From Spirochaetaceae bacterium (lineage in GTDB: Bacteria > Spirochaetota > Spirochaetia > DSM-27196 > Alkalispirochaetaceae): a stretch of 64,000 bases of DNA. The stretch is taken from assembly GCA_007695175.1 (NCBI GenBank), contig REEH01000143.1:1-64000 (forward strand). Direction: 5' to 3'. A program made the position numbers and the translations under genes. The first letter of the stretch is position 1. Each line of letters starts with the position of its first letter. Below are positions 1-56,607 of this stretch, piece by piece. The notes under the pieces were generated by a model. The model made no database searches. It had not been told where the DNA came from and saw nothing but the letters and a program-made list of their open reading frames with translations.

Positions 1-12
1 GCGAGGAACGCG

Positions 13-52
13 CGTAGCCTGAGCCCGCAGGGCGAAGGAGACGTTTTTTTTT
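13..52 (+). terminator. Rho-independent terminator of an upstream gene
   Basis: A stem-loop is followed at once by nine T residues (44-52). I can pair 13-15 with 41-43, 18-20 with 36-38 and 23-26 with 30-33 around a GCA loop. The three helices are separated by two symmetrical A/G doublet mismatches (16-17 with 39-40, 21-22 with 34-35). It should end transcription of a plus-strand gene or RNA lying to the left of the window. Nothing else is visible in bases 1-80. Confidence 0.5.
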
Positions 53-83
53 GTGCCCCCGTGAAAACGCGGCAAAAAGAACT

Positions 84-112
84 CTGAATAGCGCAAACTT
101 CTCTCCTATAGT
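84..112 (+). promoter_or_regulatory. Possible sigma-70 promoter of cheW
   Basis: TATAGT at 107-112 is a good -10 box (five of six to consensus). The -35 at 84-89 (CTGAAT) is poor at 17-base spacing. The same -10 hexamer precedes nadK and the signal peptidase gene. It lies downstream of the terminator at 13-52, so cheW needs its own start near here. Confidence 0.4.
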
Positions 113-180
113 CTGTTGCGGGTTCGGTTTTTGTCTTGCCAACGCCCCCCCGGGTCGCTATGCTTGGGGCGGAAGGTGTC

Positions 181-663
181 ATGAACGATCAGCAGGATGA
201 AGTTCAACTGGTAACATTTCAACTCGGCGCGGAATATTACGGCATAGATATAATGCAGGTAAAAAGCATCGAGGAAACGACGGAGGTCCGGCCGATACCC
301 AATTCGCCGGGTTACGTGGAGGGTATTTTCAACCTGCGGGGGGAAATTATTCCGGTCATAAACCTGCACAAGCGTTTTCATCTTACCCGGATGCAGACCG
401 AGGACGACGATGACGACTTGCTCAGGGGGTTCCTCATTATTCGAGTAGAAGAGATGCACGTGGCGATTATCATCGACAGGATATCCCGCGTCCTCACCGT
501 GAGATTCCGGGACGTTCAGCAACCTCCGCAGATGATCTCCGGTATTGGTGCGGAGTACATAGAGGGCGTGGTGCAGCGGGACGAGGGCTACCTGATCATT
601 CTCGATATCGACCGGTTGTTCAACTTGCGCGAGTTGGCGCAGTTGGAATCCCTCGCCCGATGA
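181..663 (+). CDS. cheW: Chemotaxis adaptor protein CheW
   Basis: CheW links chemoreceptors to the CheA kinase in membrane-bound arrays. The product is 160 residues, the usual length for a single CheW domain. The core is easy to recognise: a V-K-S-I-E-E stretch at about 27-32, R-P-I-P at 37-40 and the family signature N-L-R-G at 51-54 followed by I-I-P-V. An acidic run (E-D-D-D-D-D) at about 74-79 sits in a loop. ATG 181 is chosen because GGAAGG lies at 171-176; an in-frame TTG at 136 has no ribosome binding site. Its stop overlaps the start of the next gene (ATGA at 660-663), so the two are translationally coupled. No cheA or cheY follows it. Confidence 0.93.
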   Translation: MNDQQDEVQLVTFQLGAEYYGIDIMQVKSIEETTEVRPIPNSPGYVEGIFNLRGEIIPVINLHKRFHLTRMQTEDDDDDLLRGFLIIRVEEMHVAIIIDRISRVLTVRFRDVQQPPQMISGIGAEYIEGVVQRDEGYLIILDIDRLFNLRELAQLESLAR

Positions 664-1688
664 TTCCCGCCTTTCGTCCCACGATCAGACGGGCGGATAT
701 GGACGCCGTTCTCACGCGCCTGGCGGAGGATTCCATCGGCTCCGGTGGATTGGCGGCTGAGTTTTCCCAGAAGCTGGCCCGGTACGTGCAGCGCCGCAGC
801 GGAGTCTCCATGAGGTCCTACGGGCATGCTTTCACCACGGCCTTTTCCGCGCTCGGCCTTGAGCCGGGCGCCCGTGTGGGGTACTCGGTCCTCTCTCACG
901 ATGTCGTCCGTCGACTCCTGTTGCAGGCGGGCTTCGAGCCGGTGCCGATAGATACCCAGAAGGTCCTGCCGGTCCTTCCCTCACCTCTTGACGTGGATTA
1001 TCAGGCCCTTGATCTGGCTGCCCTGTACGTTGATGCGCGCCTCGGCTATGTGGCGGATCTGGACAATCTCGGAAACCTTGGTATTCCCCTTGTGGAGGAT
1101 GTTTCCGAGGGTCTCGGTGGAAATACGGGGACAACGATGGCCGGTGCGGCGGGGGATATAACGTTGATCGGCCTGGAACCGGAACACATAATTACCGCTG
1201 GTGGTGGGGCGGTGGTGGCAACGAGTCATTCCCGGCGTGTCCCTCTCCTGAACAGCGCTGTGGACGGCACTCTCGGCAATCCGCCTCTGCCGGACATGAA
1301 CGCCGCCCTGGGGCTTACCCAGATAAAACAACTGGAACGTTTCGTCGAACGGCGGCAGGAGCTCGCCGCCAGGTTCCTGCGGACAGTGCAGAAAACCCGG
1401 CACGTCCTGCCCGTACAGGCGGGAGAGGGAGAAAACGTCTTCTTTGCACTTCCTCTTCTTGTGGACAGTTCTCCCCGGGACGTGGAGCAGTACGCTCGAA
1501 CGCACGGCGTAACCGTTACACGAGCCTTCTCCGGCTCGGCTTTGATTGTCGGAAGCGACGAAATACCCGCGGAATCATTCCCCAATGCGCTTTCCCTGGC
1601 GTCCCGGATGGTACTCTTTCCCCTGTATCCGACACTTGGAAAAACGGAGCAGGAGCGTGTGGAGCGGGTACTTTCTACTATTCCTTAG
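660..1688 (+). CDS. DegT/DnrJ/EryC1-fold protein lacking the PLP lysine
   Basis: The 342-residue product has the fold-type I layout of the DegT/StrS sugar aminotransferases: an N-terminal substrate/dimer segment, the V-E-D motif at 145-147 (Asp147 would hold the PLP ring nitrogen), then G-D-I at 165-167 and G-G-G-A at 181-184. In active family members a lysine six residues before the G-E-G-G motif forms the Schiff base. Here that position is Glu175, with His176 next. It therefore should not work as a normal aminotransferase; a structural, binding or lyase-like role is possible. It is coupled to cheW by an ATGA overlap, an unusual partner for a sugar enzyme. Family membership is fairly sure, function unknown. 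Confidence 0.75.
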   Translation: MIPAFRPTIRRADMDAVLTRLAEDSIGSGGLAAEFSQKLARYVQRRSGVSMRSYGHAFTTAFSALGLEPGARVGYSVLSHDVVRRLLLQAGFEPVPIDTQKVLPVLPSPLDVDYQALDLAALYVDARLGYVADLDNLGNLGIPLVEDVSEGLGGNTGTTMAGAAGDITLIGLEPEHIITAGGGAVVATSHSRRVPLLNSAVDGTLGNPPLPDMNAALGLTQIKQLERFVERRQELAARFLRTVQKTRHVLPVQAGEGENVFFALPLLVDSSPRDVEQYARTHGVTVTRAFSGSALIVGSDEIPAESFPNALSLASRMVLFPLYPTLGKTEQERVERVLSTIP

Positions 1689-1745: not shown

Positions 1746-2603
1746 ATGGAACACACTATCCGATCGATCCTGGTGATCGCCAACACTGCAAAGCCCGGAG
1801 CGCGGGAGCTGGGGCTCGCTATCGAGTCGTTCTGCCGTGAACAGGGTATCCAGGCGCGCCTCTTTCTCTACGACGGGATAGCTCACACGGTGCCGCTGGA
1901 GAATCATTTTGAGCTCGCCGTCACCCTGGGGGGCGATGGCACGGTTCTCTTTGCCAGCCGGGTTCTGGCGGAGCATAACGTGCCGATTCTTCCGGTAAAC
2001 CTTGGTGAGTTCGGATTCATCAGCGAGGTCGGACACGATGAGTGGCGCCATGCCCTGACAGCTTTTCTCGCCGGTCGGATCGGCATCGGTAACCGCCTCG
2101 TCCTGGACGTACACGTCCGGAGGGATGGTAACGATCTCTGCAGCTTGCGGGGCCTGAACGAGGCGGTCATTTCGGCGGGGGGCATTTCCCGGATGGTCCG
2201 GCTCACGGTGCGCCTGAGTGACCAGTACCTCGGTACGTATCGCGCTGATGGAGTGATGGTAGCCACCCCGACGGGATCCACCGCCTATTCCGCCGCGGCG
2301 GGAGGTCCAATCCTTCATCCTGAGATGGATGCCATGATCCTGAACCCCATCTGTCCCTTTACTCTCTCCCATCGACCGATCGTGTTGCCTGCTGATGAGG
2401 TGGTAGAGATTCGAGTGGACCATGAACAGCGGACGGACGTGGCTCTCACCGTGGACGGGCAATCGATGATTCCCCTCGAACCCGGTGACGCTGTCATTGT
2501 TCGGGCGGGAAGCGAAAAGGCGCGAATCGTACGCTCCGACCGGCGCACCTTCTACGAGGTCCTGCGGACCAAGCTCAACTGGGCGGGAGGTCCGGATGAT
2601 TGA
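1746..2603 (+). CDS. nadK: NAD kinase
   Basis: Phosphorylates NAD to NADP in the cytoplasm, the sole source of NADP. The 285-residue length and motifs fit: G-G-D-G-T at 62-66 (the ATP/NAD-binding signature shared with diacylglycerol kinases) and the later N-E (in G-L-N-E-A) and T-P-T-G-S-T-A-Y-S segments that bind the nicotinamide ribose. ATG 1746 follows GGGGGA at 1735-1740. The last eight bases overlap recN. The nadK-recN pair is also adjacent in many Gram-positive bacteria and in treponemes. Confidence 0.93.
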   Translation: MEHTIRSILVIANTAKPGARELGLAIESFCREQGIQARLFLYDGIAHTVPLENHFELAVTLGGDGTVLFASRVLAEHNVPILPVNLGEFGFISEVGHDEWRHALTAFLAGRIGIGNRLVLDVHVRRDGNDLCSLRGLNEAVISAGGISRMVRLTVRLSDQYLGTYRADGVMVATPTGSTAYSAAAGGPILHPEMDAMILNPICPFTLSHRPIVLPADEVVEIRVDHEQRTDVALTVDGQSMIPLEPGDAVIVRAGSEKARIVRSDRRTFYEVLRTKLNWAGGPDD

Positions 2604-4308
2604 GCGGATCCAGGTTCGCAATTTTATCCTCGTGGACGAACTGGAGATGGAGTTCACTCCCGGTTTCAACGTGCTGAGCGGGGAGACGGGAGCCGGTAAG
2701 AGTATCCTGGTGGGTGCTCTTTCCGTTCTTTTTGGAGGGAAAGGCGGTCCGGATCTGGTCAGAACGGGTGCCGACGAGGCTGTCGTGGCGGGAGAGTTTC
2801 TTGTCCGGGGTCACGAGGAGTGCCGGGAATGGCTGGCGAGCAGGGGGATAGAACCGGAGGAGGACATCGTTCTGGTACGACGTACGCTGAAAACGTCGGG
2901 GCGGGGTACGATCTACATGCAGAATACCCCGGTTACGCGTTCGGACCTGGAGGAGTTTACCGGCTTTCTCCTGGATCTGCACAGCCAGCACGAGCACCAG
3001 TCGCTCTTTCATGAGTCTACCCATCGGCGTCTCCTGGACCGGTACGCCGGTATCGAGGATCGCGTCAGAGCGTTCGGGGACTCCTTCAACCGGCTGACGG
3101 AACTGCAGGAACGTTTGAAAGAACTGGCGGACCGGGAACGCGACCGCGTCCGGGAAACGGAGATGCTTCAGTTCGCGATTCGGGAGATCGAGCAGGCTGC
3201 TATCCGCCCGGGGGAACGGGAGGAGCTGGAATCGGAACGAACCCGCATGAACCAGTATGAACGGCTCGCGGCCCACGTGGAGACGCTGGCTCGCCTCTTT
3301 GAGGATAATGATGAGGGCCCGACACTACCGTTGCTTCTGAAACAGGCGCGTCACGAGCTTGGTGGAGCGGCGCGGCTTGATCCAGCTCTCACGGGAGATT
3401 CGAGCCGCCTGGATAGTCTCTATTACGAGCTGGAGGATCTGGGGCAGGCCGTAATCTCCTATCGGGAAACACTCGTGTATGACCCCGCTCGCCTTGATCT
3501 CATCGAGGAACGCCTCGCGGCGCTGCGGGACCTGCAGAGGAAATATGGCGAGACGGAAGAGGCTATTCTGCGGTATGCCGAGGAAGCGGCGGAGACCCTG
3601 GATACGCTCCGGGCGGCCGGGGAAAACCGTGATTCGATTCAGCAGCAGATCCACCTTCTTGAACAGGAAATCGGCCGGGAGGCGCGCGCGATTCACGCTG
3701 AACGCGCCGCGGCGGCGGAAAAACTGCAGCAGCGGATCTCCACCGTGCTGGGTGAACTGGCCATGGGGAAGGCCGATTTCGTGGTCCTCGTGGAAAGCAG
3801 AACGAGTGAGACGGGGCGGCTCCTGTGCGGGCTCCACGGGGCAGACCGGGTACAGTTCCTGATCTCCACAAATGCGGGCGAGCCGGTTCGTCCCCTCTCT
3901 CAGGTCGCTTCGGGGGGAGAGATCTCCCGGGTAATGCTTGCAATCAAGACCGTCCTGGCCGGCAATGACGAGCTGCGCTGCCTCGTCTTTGATGAGATCG
4001 ATACGGGCATCGGTGGCAGAGTTGCTCTGGCTCTGGCCTCCCATTTACGCTTTCTCGCGGACCATACACAGGTAATTTGCATTACCCACCTTGCTACAAT
4101 CGCCGTTCGTGCCGATAATCATATTGCCGTGGAAAAAAGTGCCCTGCATGATCATACGATGATTTCCGTCCGCTCGCTCGCGGGCGATGATCGGACGACG
4201 GAGATAGCCCGCATGCTGTCCGGAGAAGGCGAGGAATCATACAGCCTTGAGCACGCCCGGGCTCTGCTCGGGCGATACCAGAGAGAGGCAAATGGGAAAG
4301 ATCAGTAA
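2596..4308 (+). CDS. recN: DNA repair protein RecN
   Basis: SMC-like ATPase that gathers and protects double-strand break ends during recombinational repair. It is 570 residues, normal for RecN. Walker A G-E-T-G-A-G-K-S is at 29-36. A long charged coiled-coil middle follows, then the ABC signature S-G-G-E-I-S-R near 438 and Walker B with L-V-F-D-E-I-D near 462. ATG 2596 is preferred over upstream in-frame codons: GGGAGG lies at 2585-2590 and residues from M-I-E-R-I-Q onward match the family N-terminus. It overlaps nadK upstream and the next gene downstream. Confidence 0.95.
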   Translation: MIERIQVRNFILVDELEMEFTPGFNVLSGETGAGKSILVGALSVLFGGKGGPDLVRTGADEAVVAGEFLVRGHEECREWLASRGIEPEEDIVLVRRTLKTSGRGTIYMQNTPVTRSDLEEFTGFLLDLHSQHEHQSLFHESTHRRLLDRYAGIEDRVRAFGDSFNRLTELQERLKELADRERDRVRETEMLQFAIREIEQAAIRPGEREELESERTRMNQYERLAAHVETLARLFEDNDEGPTLPLLLKQARHELGGAARLDPALTGDSSRLDSLYYELEDLGQAVISYRETLVYDPARLDLIEERLAALRDLQRKYGETEEAILRYAEEAAETLDTLRAAGENRDSIQQQIHLLEQEIGREARAIHAERAAAAEKLQQRISTVLGELAMGKADFVVLVESRTSETGRLLCGLHGADRVQFLISTNAGEPVRPLSQVASGGEISRVMLAIKTVLAGNDELRCLVFDEIDTGIGGRVALALASHLRFLADHTQVICITHLATIAVRADNHIAVEKSALHDHTMISVRSLAGDDRTTEIARMLSGEGEESYSLEHARALLGRYQREANGKDQ

Positions 4309-5107
4309 CGAGGCGCGGCAGCAGTACTTCGAGAGAATCAAGGAGTACAAGCATACCGCGGAGACGATTCTGCAGCGCGAGAAGAGTCTTCTCAAGGTTG
4401 TCGGTTCCGACAAGAGTGGATCCGCGTACAAATACCTGATGCTGGCGGACGAGCGTCTTAACGTCGCCTCCTACTACATGCTGCAGAACGCGCTCTCCGT
4501 ATCGCTGCTGGGCGTAAAGAACGAGGCATTTCTCAACGACGCCAGGAAGAGTTGTTATCAGGCAGTTATCTATCTGGAGGAGGTCGTTTCCGATTACGTG
4601 GACGCACCCTTTTCCGATTATTCTGAGCTGCAGGAAAAAATAGACGGCTTTACCGACGAGAAGCGATACGCTCTGGCGCGAAAGATCGGGTACACCATAC
4701 AGTCGGTGGAGGACGCTTTCGGACGGAACTCCAAATGGCGCTGGTCTTTCGTGGAGCTTGAGGGAAGGTTTACCACGGTCGCGAAGAATCTCGTCAACTT
4801 CAAGACATTCGTTGCCGGAATGGATCCTTCCGTGGAGGGATACCAGTCGCGAATGGGGCATCTGGACCTGATACAGAGTCTCCTCATGCAATCGGCTGAC
4901 CGGTATCGTGAGAAATACGAACTTTCCACCCTGCGCATTGATGACTTCAAGACCGCCATCGCGTTCCTCTCCGCTTTGCGCCGCATCCATATCATTCTGG
5001 GTGAAGCGGATAAAGCCGAGGAGATAAAGAAGAAAGCGGAAGTGTGGAAGGTCAAGATGGAGTCTGACGAAAAAGCGCAGGCTCAGCAAAAGAAGCAGAG
5101 GCCCTGA
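4292..5107 (+). CDS. Conserved protein of unknown function next to recN
   Basis: The 271-residue product is soluble, strongly charged and mostly helical by inspection, with no signal peptide, no membrane span and a lysine/glutamine-rich tail. I recognise no catalytic motif. ATG 4292 overlaps the 3' end of recN and is preceded by GAGAGAGG. From memory, treponemes carry a similar-sized hypothetical gene after recN, so it is probably a lineage gene rather than a recent arrival. The next gene starts six bases downstream. The name is left open. Confidence 0.8.
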   Translation: MGKISNEARQQYFERIKEYKHTAETILQREKSLLKVVGSDKSGSAYKYLMLADERLNVASYYMLQNALSVSLLGVKNEAFLNDARKSCYQAVIYLEEVVSDYVDAPFSDYSELQEKIDGFTDEKRYALARKIGYTIQSVEDAFGRNSKWRWSFVELEGRFTTVAKNLVNFKTFVAGMDPSVEGYQSRMGHLDLIQSLLMQSADRYREKYELSTLRIDDFKTAIAFLSALRRIHIILGEADKAEEIKKKAEVWKVKMESDEKAQAQQKKQRP

Positions 5108-54375: not shown

Positions 54376-54985
54376 AGCGTTTCTTGTCCTGGGCCTCTCT
54401 CCGGAGACGTCGCTCGGGGACGTACGTCGAAGGTACCACGTCCTCATCAAGGAGCTGCACCCCGATACGGCTGGAGAGAATCCGGAGAAGGTCGCGCAGG
54501 TTATCGAAGCGTATCACTGTATCCGGAAGGGATCGATGCGCCACCGGTACCACGAAACTGGTCGCCGCGCCACCGGTGAGAGCGATTCCAGTTGCTCCAT
54601 GTCGCCTCGAACAGTGTTTACGCTCGGGCGCTGGGCGGCTACGGCAACTGATCGCCGCGTTCGCCTCCATGCAGTGCGCCGCCTCGCGGCCTCGGGCATG
54701 CAGTCGGCTGCGGCTTTCCTGCGCTCCGCGATGCTTGACTCGGACCGGGAAATCGCATCCTCCGCGGCGGAGGGGTTTCTGTCCTGCGCCGGAATAAGCG
54801 CGGAGCAGAGCATTCTCGATCTGTTTGACCGGATGCCTGTCTCGCATCGACTCATTGTTCTGGCGGCTATCGAGCAGTCCGGCAGAGTCATGCCCCGGGT
54901 AATCACCTGGGCGCTGGTGGACTCCGACCGGCGCGTGCGGGAGGCGGCCATGAGATTACAACACACCGGAGGAAGAACAGCATGA
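54362..54985 (+). CDS. J-domain protein with HEAT-like repeats
   Basis: The 207-residue product starts with a J domain (about 4-58) carrying the essential H-P-D at 33-35, so it should stimulate an Hsp70 ATPase. Residues about 85-205 form alpha-helical HEAT/armadillo-like units (V-R-L-H-A-V-R-R-L-A and V-R-E-A-A-M-R-L mark two of them), a likely client-binding surface. It lacks the zinc and C-terminal domains of DnaJ. The start overlaps the Hsp70 stop and its stop overlaps the CheA-like start, so the three are translationally coupled. Confidence 0.85.
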   Translation: MRNDEAFLVLGLSPETSLGDVRRRYHVLIKELHPDTAGENPEKVAQVIEAYHCIRKGSMRHRYHETGRRATGESDSSCSMSPRTVFTLGRWAATATDRRVRLHAVRRLAASGMQSAAAFLRSAMLDSDREIASSAAEGFLSCAGISAEQSILDLFDRMPVSHRLIVLAAIEQSGRVMPRVITWALVDSDRRVREAAMRLQHTGGRTA

Positions 54986-56607
54986 GCGATTCCCGGGCGA
55001 TCCAGGCACACCTGGAGCCAATACTGGAAATCCTGCAGGAATACGTTCTGCGCGATTCGGAGGAAGCGTTGCCGCGGGGCTTTGACGGAGCCCTGGAGAA
55101 GGCGCTGGAAGAAGCACGGTTTCTGCAGATGGACAGCGTTATCGCCGCCCTGGAGAGTATCCTGGACCTGGCTGCGGGAGGCCGGCCGGATCCGCAGGAA
55201 CTGCTGCCGCCGTTGTTTTCTCTTCAGGATACGCTCCAGGCGGTACCGGTAGATATACCCGCCGACGCGACGCCTGCCCATGATCATCCTGACCAGTTTC
55301 TGCAGTGGGACGGCCAGTCCGACCAGGAGGAGGTGCTGCGTCTTGATGAACACCAGCGTTTTCTGCTGGACGGGGCATTGAGCCGCGGGCTGACCCCCTA
55401 TGTTCTCAGGATAACCTATTCCGGTTTCTCCACGACGGTCAAAGCTCTGGAAGACCTGCTGGAACGGGAACTCTCGCTGGTCAAGGTTATTTCCTCCGAA
55501 TCGCGGCAGCGTCTGGCCGCGCTTGTCGTTTCAAGTGGGGAGCTGCCCCTGAGGGCCGTACTGGATCAACTGCCGGCCGAGCAAACCGAGACGCTGCAAT
55601 TCGAATCCCGCCAGATTGACGCTCAAGCCTTTCAATCCACCGGCGATACCGACCGCCCCTGGTACTATGATTTACCACCCCTCGTGATCCAGCTGGAAGC
55701 GGCGGCACTCGACCGTATGCGATTCTATATCAGCCGACTCCAGGCTATCGTGAATCCCCGGGACCAGCCTCTGGTGCGGGAACTTGCCCAGACGCTGGAA
55801 TCGGCCGTCTCCGTGAGCTTGAGAAATCTCGTGGAGAGTCTGAGGACTCCTCTGGAGGAGGTAGCAAAGGGCGAGAGGAAACGCGTCGTTCTATCCTATG
55901 GTGGTGCTGTCGAGAGGATTCCCGCCGAGATTGCCGATGTCCTTCGGGAGGCACTGCAGGAGCTGCTCATCAATGCGATCACCCACGGCATTGAAGCTCC
56001 GGCGGAGCGGGCCGGTGCCGGAAAAAGAGAGCAGGGTTCGTTACATGTTTTCGGCAGCATCGAGAACCATGTCCTTACGGTTCGGGTTGTGGATGACGGT
56101 AAGGGTCTCTCCTCGGAGGAAGGTCTCGTGGTGGGTGGTCTGCGCCGGATCAAAAAACTTCTCCAGCAGCGCCTGGGAGGTGCCGTGGCGGTCCGGAGCG
56201 GTGAGCGGGGTACTTCCGCCACGGTCACCGTCCCTGTTGCCGCCGGAGGATGGACGGGACTGCTCTGCATGCGGGAGTCGAGGCCCTTTGTCGTTCCCAT
56301 CGTTCTTATCGCCGCAGTGGTGCCGGTCGGAGCGGGAGAGATAGTCGAGGAGCCCTCCGGGGGAGGATTTCTGCGGTACCGGGATCGGCAGGTTCCCCTC
56401 GTGGAGGCCCATGGAAGCCATCCGGTTGAGCCGGTGAAGGCGGCGGTCATTGTCTCGATGCTATCCGGTGATTTCGCGTTTGCCCTCGACGGGGAGCCGG
56501 AAGAGGTGTCGGTCATTCCTGACGGTATGGGAACGGTGGAGATTCCGGAAAAAGGGTTGCAGCAGGTCACGGTAGCCATTCAACCGGGACTGGGAGAAAA
56601 CGAATAG
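54982..56607 (+). CDS. CheA-like ATPase/CheW-domain protein without Hpt histidine
   Basis: The 541-residue product ends like CheA: a HATPase domain with N box E-L-L-I-N-A-I-T-H-G-I-E (Asn331, His335) and G1 box D-D-G-K-G (371-375), then a CheW-like domain from about 422. In place of the P1 phosphotransfer domain there are about 90 helical residues without the H-x-x-K-G motif, then a P2-like alpha/beta stretch (about 138-200) and a helical region resembling the dimerisation unit. It could bind ATP and receptors but has no obvious phospho-acceptor. It may phosphorylate another protein or be a scaffold. Last gene of the rightward operon. Confidence 0.8.
   Translation: MSDSRAIQAHLEPILEILQEYVLRDSEEALPRGFDGALEKALEEARFLQMDSVIAALESILDLAAGGRPDPQELLPPLFSLQDTLQAVPVDIPADATPAHDHPDQFLQWDGQSDQEEVLRLDEHQRFLLDGALSRGLTPYVLRITYSGFSTTVKALEDLLERELSLVKVISSESRQRLAALVVSSGELPLRAVLDQLPAEQTETLQFESRQIDAQAFQSTGDTDRPWYYDLPPLVIQLEAAALDRMRFYISRLQAIVNPRDQPLVRELAQTLESAVSVSLRNLVESLRTPLEEVAKGERKRVVLSYGGAVERIPAEIADVLREALQELLINAITHGIEAPAERAGAGKREQGSLHVFGSIENHVLTVRVVDDGKGLSSEEGLVVGGLRRIKKLLQQRLGGAVAVRSGERGTSATVTVPVAAGGWTGLLCMRESRPFVVPIVLIAAVVPVGAGEIVEEPSGGGFLRYRDRQVPLVEAHGSHPVEPVKAAVIVSMLSGDFAFALDGEPEEVSVIPDGMGTVEIPEKGLQQVTVAIQPGLGENE

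Follow-up and report, generated by a model that had tools for sequence, protein, structure and literature searches.

The window analysed here, a stretch of 64,000 nucleotides, is the start of its contig in a spirochaete genome of 3.7 Mb. Near its beginning lies an intact ORF (660-1688) for a protein that we call DegTx, within the gene order cheW-DegTx-nadK-recN-ORF of Spirochaetia. The features are as follows.

181-663, plus strand: cheW, overlapping the start of the DegTx gene
660-1688, plus strand: DegTx, a DegT-fold protein of 342 aa without the PLP lysine
813-815, plus strand: codon of Arg52 in the former phosphate-binding loop (near invariant, 63/65 Spirochaetia orthologues)
1098-1100, plus strand: codon of Asp147, at the retained pyridine-binding Asp column of the alignment
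1176-1178, plus strand: codon of Glu173, in place of Tyr/His/Phe (near invariant, 62/65 Spirochaetia orthologues)
1182-1184, plus strand: codon of Glu175, the residue before the Lys column
1185-1187, plus strand: codon of His176, at the Schiff-base Lys position in profile and multiple alignments
1746-2603, plus strand: nadK (NAD kinase), next after the orthologue in 64/64 loci with enough flank
2596-4308, plus strand: a putative recN-like gene, named from its sequence; next in the conserved order in 56/58 loci with enough flank
4292-5107, plus strand: a conserved ORF with no match in Pfam, at the end of the conserved gene order

The sole Pfam match of DegTx is DegT_DnrJ_EryC1 (PF01041), at 89.2 bits against a curated cut-off of 19.8. 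An AlphaFold2 model, made with 31 orthologues as input (mean pLDDT 92.6), resembles GDP-perosamine synthase, ArnB and PseC along its full length (VIA Z 38.5–40.4, rmsd 2.2–2.5), and Foldseek agrees; VIA-align superposes 336–340 residues on GDP-perosamine synthase and ArnB at Z of about 40. Both the profile score and the fold searches thus place DegTx in the DegT_DnrJ_EryC1 fold family, as the initial annotation had proposed. Close relatives, of 61–76 % identity, are found in Alkalispirochaeta alkalica DSM 8900 and three Spirochaeta MAGs. The scores of DegTx lie far below the NCBIfam equivalog cut-offs for PseC (87 bits vs 423.5), LegC-type enzymes (67 vs 420) and ArnB (46.8 vs 631), and PHROGs returns only 'aminotransferase'.

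The initial annotation had placed Glu175 at the position of the Schiff-base lysine. No lysine is present at that position under either of the alignments discussed here, but the residue named was off by one, as three comparisons put the Lys column at His176. The best PDB match by phmmer, 7b0m, places its Lys there; hhalign aligns the profile of the class orthologues with a profile of Lys-bearing DegT proteins without gaps and with the same result; and in a MAFFT alignment of 121 proteins, from which same-genome duplicates, fragments shorter than 280 aa and close copies had been dropped, 25 of 28 ordinary DegT proteins have K at column 176 and the other three have H. A phmmer alignment with ArnB does set Glu175 opposite the Lys, at the cost of a later gap; we rejected this placement because it requires a gap of one residue within the GEGG loop and departs from the profile alignments. 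Neither column is fixed across the 65 Spirochaetia orthologues. Column 176 is D in 23, H in 11, G in 8, S in 8, N in 5, C in 5, K in 3, A in 1 and M in 1, and column 175 is D in 21, E in 18, R in 7, K in 6 and one of seven other residues in the remainder; in family f1, to which the window's species belongs, 8/8 proteins checked have H at position 176, preceded by E, Q or D at position 175. DegTx therefore lacks the Schiff-base lysine of PLP-dependent DegT aminotransferases, as do all but three of its class orthologues, and on these alignments the conserved trait is the absence of a fixed Lys, not any one replacement residue.

For the rest of the cofactor site, the roles of the residues were assigned from those of ArnB. 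Asp147 aligns with the pyridine-binding Asp column, which is D in 63/65 class orthologues and in 28/28 ordinary DegT proteins, so that its retention, also noted at the outset, holds well beyond this genome. The phosphate-binding side chains fare differently: Thr or Ser stands at column 55 in 8/65 class orthologues vs 24/28 ordinary DegT proteins, and Ser at column 171 in 20/65 vs 28/28, DegTx itself having Gly55 and Gly171. An aromatic residue or His at column 173 is found in 0/65 vs 25/28. Asp147, Thr/Ser55 and Ser171 occur together in 3/65 class orthologues, 16/28 homologues from other classes and 24/28 ordinary DegT proteins. In place of the lost residues, positions 52 and 173 carry R/E in 62 of the 65 class orthologues, R/D in 1, K/D in 1 and A/G in 1; the charges are thus opposite in 64/65, and in the exception (L094) both are lost together. 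Arg52 and Glu173 would be joined by a salt bridge spanning the old cofactor site. Conservation extends to the C-terminal end, the last residue being proline in 63/65. Compared with ArnB and GDP-perosamine synthase, to which it is 18–22 % identical, DegTx thus shares the full-length fold (VIA Z 39.5–40.4) and the Asp147 column, but has no Schiff-base Lys, belongs to a family mostly without the phosphate-binding Thr/Ser, and carries Arg52 and Glu173 instead.

DegT proteins without the lysine are already known. ColD and E1 (CDP-4-keto-6-deoxyglucose 3-dehydrase) are PMP enzymes in which a His serves catalysis, and a ColD-like parallel had been drawn for DegTx in the initial annotation. A candidate Lys-independent enzyme, using PMP or binding PLP non-covalently, would accord with the shared fold (Z 37–38), with the His found at the Lys column in this genus, with the retained Asp147 and with the other-class relatives, which often keep Asp147, Thr/Ser55 and Ser171. 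However, the family does not conserve the His as ColD and E1 do (11/65 in the class, where Asp is commoner), and the phosphate site is not retained. Since the class has no fixed residue in place of the Lys, and most of its members have lost the side chains that bind the phosphate, a ColD-like use of the residue is unsupported, and we regard a Lys-independent enzyme as an unlikely explanation. As far as our searches reach, what is new is a lineage without the Lys in which the Lys column varies freely and the phosphate site is gone, and which is retained across the class; open-access literature searches returned no description of such a lineage, nor of DegTx.

Genomes of the phylum (n=295) were searched with a profile score threshold of 275 bits, and 91 scored at least this value, all of them of the class Spirochaetia. 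In a further eight Spirochaetia genomes the match is split by an insertion, the whole proteins scoring 326–361 bits, and a ninth lower-scoring one (G341) is divergent, at 209 bits. No match was found in 39 genomes; among 20 of these that were listed, 17 belong to family f26, two to f19 and one to f22. One DegTx-bearing genome resembles that of the syphilis spirochaete in size and gene order. For the closest pair tested, dN/dS was 0.063 for DegTx, 0.023 for CheW and 0.035 for NadK, many other pairs being saturated at synonymous sites. DegTx is also the fastest evolving of the four proteins compared (mean distance 1.36, vs 0.98 for NadK, 0.95 for RecN and 0.56 for CheW). This rapid evolution, and the loss of DegTx from several lineages, are what might be seen in a decaying, functionless remnant of a DegT aminotransferase, one of the conditions under which the initial annotation would have had to be withdrawn. 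Yet the frame is open in almost all genomes, the gene is kept even in a reduced genome of 1.1 Mb (G112), dN/dS is well below 1, and near-invariant residues limited to the class, together with the conserved C-terminal end, persist. DegTx is under purifying selection, is present in most sampled Spirochaetia genomes and is not a decayed gene; we consider decay highly improbable.

Homologues in other classes of Spirochaetota (205–243 bits) lack the Lys in 25/28 cases and have K in 3/28 (L161 and L162 of family f37 and L163 of f32). Two trees were computed with the columns surrounding the Lys excluded, one of 81 rows with 23 ordinary DegT proteins and one of 75 rows with a second phylum added. The Spirochaetia proteins formed one clade, and the wider group, the three Lys-bearing homologues included, split from ordinary DegT proteins with SH-aLRT support of 100 (23 ordinary proteins) and 97 (second phylum added). 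In that control phylum, which is that of a Lentisphaerae genome and the one other phylum sampled, matches had similar profile scores (40 control genomes had one), yet Lys stood at column 176 in 21/21 loci placed in the tree; the group is therefore defined by the loss of Lys and by the tree, not by score alone. Lys-bearing proteins, Lys-less proteins with an intact phosphate site, and proteins with full loss and a replacement charge pair together form a series of intermediates for the study of how a PLP enzyme turns into a pseudoenzyme.

The initial annotation had also inferred, from translational coupling to cheW, a role perhaps related to chemotaxis. The cheW stop and the DegTx ATG do overlap, as ATGA at 660–663, but this is peculiar to the window's species, the two genes being separated by a few to about 50 nt in seven other f1 genomes. 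As for cheW as a neighbour in other spirochaetes, it lies directly upstream of the orthologue in 53/61 loci with enough flank, and the order cheW-DegT-nadK recurs in 4/4 genomes of family f44, which is of another class. Such an order is what a chemotaxis- or CheW-linked role would lead one to expect, and the canonical CheW outside the chemosensory clusters that is described for the spirochaete F2 system (PMC7666581) would fit this cheW. The same study offers a working analogy in the CheW-CheRlike protein of F2 arrays, where spirochaetes have retained, near a CheW, an enzyme fold whose catalytic residues are altered; the authors speculate that the CheR-like domain is not a methyltransferase, and found it essential for array integrity (PMC7666581). 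That protein differs in having another fold and in being fused to CheW, whereas DegTx is separate and persists without CheW.

The neighbourhood of cheW is nevertheless not constant. In family f16, which we infer to be Sphaerochaetaceae-like, DegTx is present in 15/15 genomes and a CheW domain in 0/15, so that DegTx does not behave as an array component found only alongside CheW. Conversely, cheW and nadK adjoin without DegTx in 5/5 genomes inspected of family f26, presumably Borreliaceae-like to judge from genome size and gene order. The presence of DegTx is thus decoupled from chemotaxis in both directions, and the steadier neighbour is nadK (64/64 loci), not cheW (53/61). The link of DegTx to chemotaxis is weak, and a chemotaxis role seems to us improbable, somewhat more so than a Lys-independent enzyme. 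Outside the class the arrangement varies further: families f33 and f37 have the order DegT-nadK-recN, and in families f36, f41, f54, f57, f63 and part of f47 the DegT gene adjoins a QueD-type gene, not nadK. There the Lys-less DegT gene lies directly upstream of the QueD-type gene (PTPS domain, 129.9 bits) and often overlaps it. The loci with this conserved gene pair are as follows.

L097, 1585-1995: QueD-type gene pair
L100, 3386-3796: QueD-type gene pair
L102, 1670-2089: QueD-type gene pair
L156, L157 and L168-L171: QueD-type gene pairs

In one genome of family f14 (G051) no DegTx lies between cheW and nadK, and an ordinary Lys-bearing DegT gene stands last in the same cluster, after the conserved ORF (L113, 7033-8340).

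Our preferred explanation, to which we assign a probability of about 0.62, is that DegTx is an ancient pseudoenzyme in which the DegT fold is kept and the PLP chemistry is gone. The suggestion in the initial annotation that the protein has changed chemistry and another role is supported, in that absence of the Lys goes far back, is conserved and does not reflect decay. DegTx keeps the predicted fold of the DegT sugar aminotransferases and, presumably, their dimer. The Lys is gone and its column varies without constraint; most class members have also lost the Thr/Ser and Ser that bind the phosphate and the Tyr/His that stacks; and Arg52 and Glu173 arose together at the old cofactor site. To judge from the residues alone, the putative salt bridge between them, perhaps with Asp147, would fill and stiffen the empty site, and DegTx would act by binding a partner or a small ligand. 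Against a pseudoenzyme stand the retained Asp147 and Glu146, a possible sign that the protein still binds a pyridine-like ligand, and the Lys at column 176 in three class and three other-class orthologues. On the present evidence, the aminotransferase function assigned to DegTx by general profile libraries is wrong, for a gene that occurs in most sampled Spirochaetia genomes.

As the most constant neighbour, NadK is the first candidate for a partner of the pseudoenzyme and the best guess that the neighbourhood allows, CheW, RecN or some other protein being candidates also; against NadK, nadK is not the neighbour in those other-class genomes that have the QueD-type gene. A wider version, which we offer tentatively and hold to be rather less likely than otherwise, is that of a phylum-wide pseudoenzyme: the Lys would have been lost early in Spirochaetota, the Arg-Glu pair would have replaced the cofactor in Spirochaetia, and the protein would now regulate some core process or provide its scaffold; NADP supply (NadK), repair through RecN and the assembly of arrays are examples. 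We know of no non-enzymatic role for a DegT fold, and a regulator or scaffold of this kind, if confirmed, would to our knowledge be the first.

Evolutionary rates gave a partial correlation of 0.61–0.74 between DegTx and RecN and no signal between DegTx and NadK. When three outlier genomes were dropped, the correlation of DegTx with the control SecA (0.68) exceeded that with RecN (0.41), so that the covariation is a shared species-tree signal and not evidence of a partner, and it was rejected as a means of choosing between candidates. Two genomes were left out of the comparison, G144 (RsmH missing) and G276 (SecA in pieces), and the control MraY was dropped because its best matches in treponeme-like genomes are probably not orthologues. 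The matches to the window's MraY in these and a few other genomes are of 27–33 % identity (L217–L225), vs 58–66 % elsewhere with the two closest relatives excluded; the difference points to a paralogue or to missing contigs. An ordinary DegT protein as partner in a mixed dimer is not a general solution, since in a search of 22 genomes with PF01041 one (G119) had its Lys-less member alone and several f16 genomes showed only short weak further matches. Among long open frames near DegTx viewed by coordinates (such as those of 504 aa in two f25 genomes) no fusion was found, the cheW and DegTx matches of L093 lying in different frames, and a plasmid search with an other-class relative returned DegT-family or unannotated places.

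Several minor observations concern the surroundings of the gene. A promoter-like match lies at 1703–1731, between DegTx and nadK, and nadK may therefore also have a promoter of its own; five such matches were found in 5.2 kb, vs 1.9 expected by chance. Many contigs begin just upstream of cheW, as in the window (1–180). In L006 (1–88), cheW starts shortly after the end of a 5S rRNA gene at position 88, and L046 (1359–1473) has 23S-5S rRNA upstream, so an rRNA operon is probably behind the contig breaks in this genus. Farther along the window, 54982–56607 encodes a protein of 541 residues whose only match, to HATPase_c, is weak (29.1 bits); it may be a divergent CheA-like kinase.
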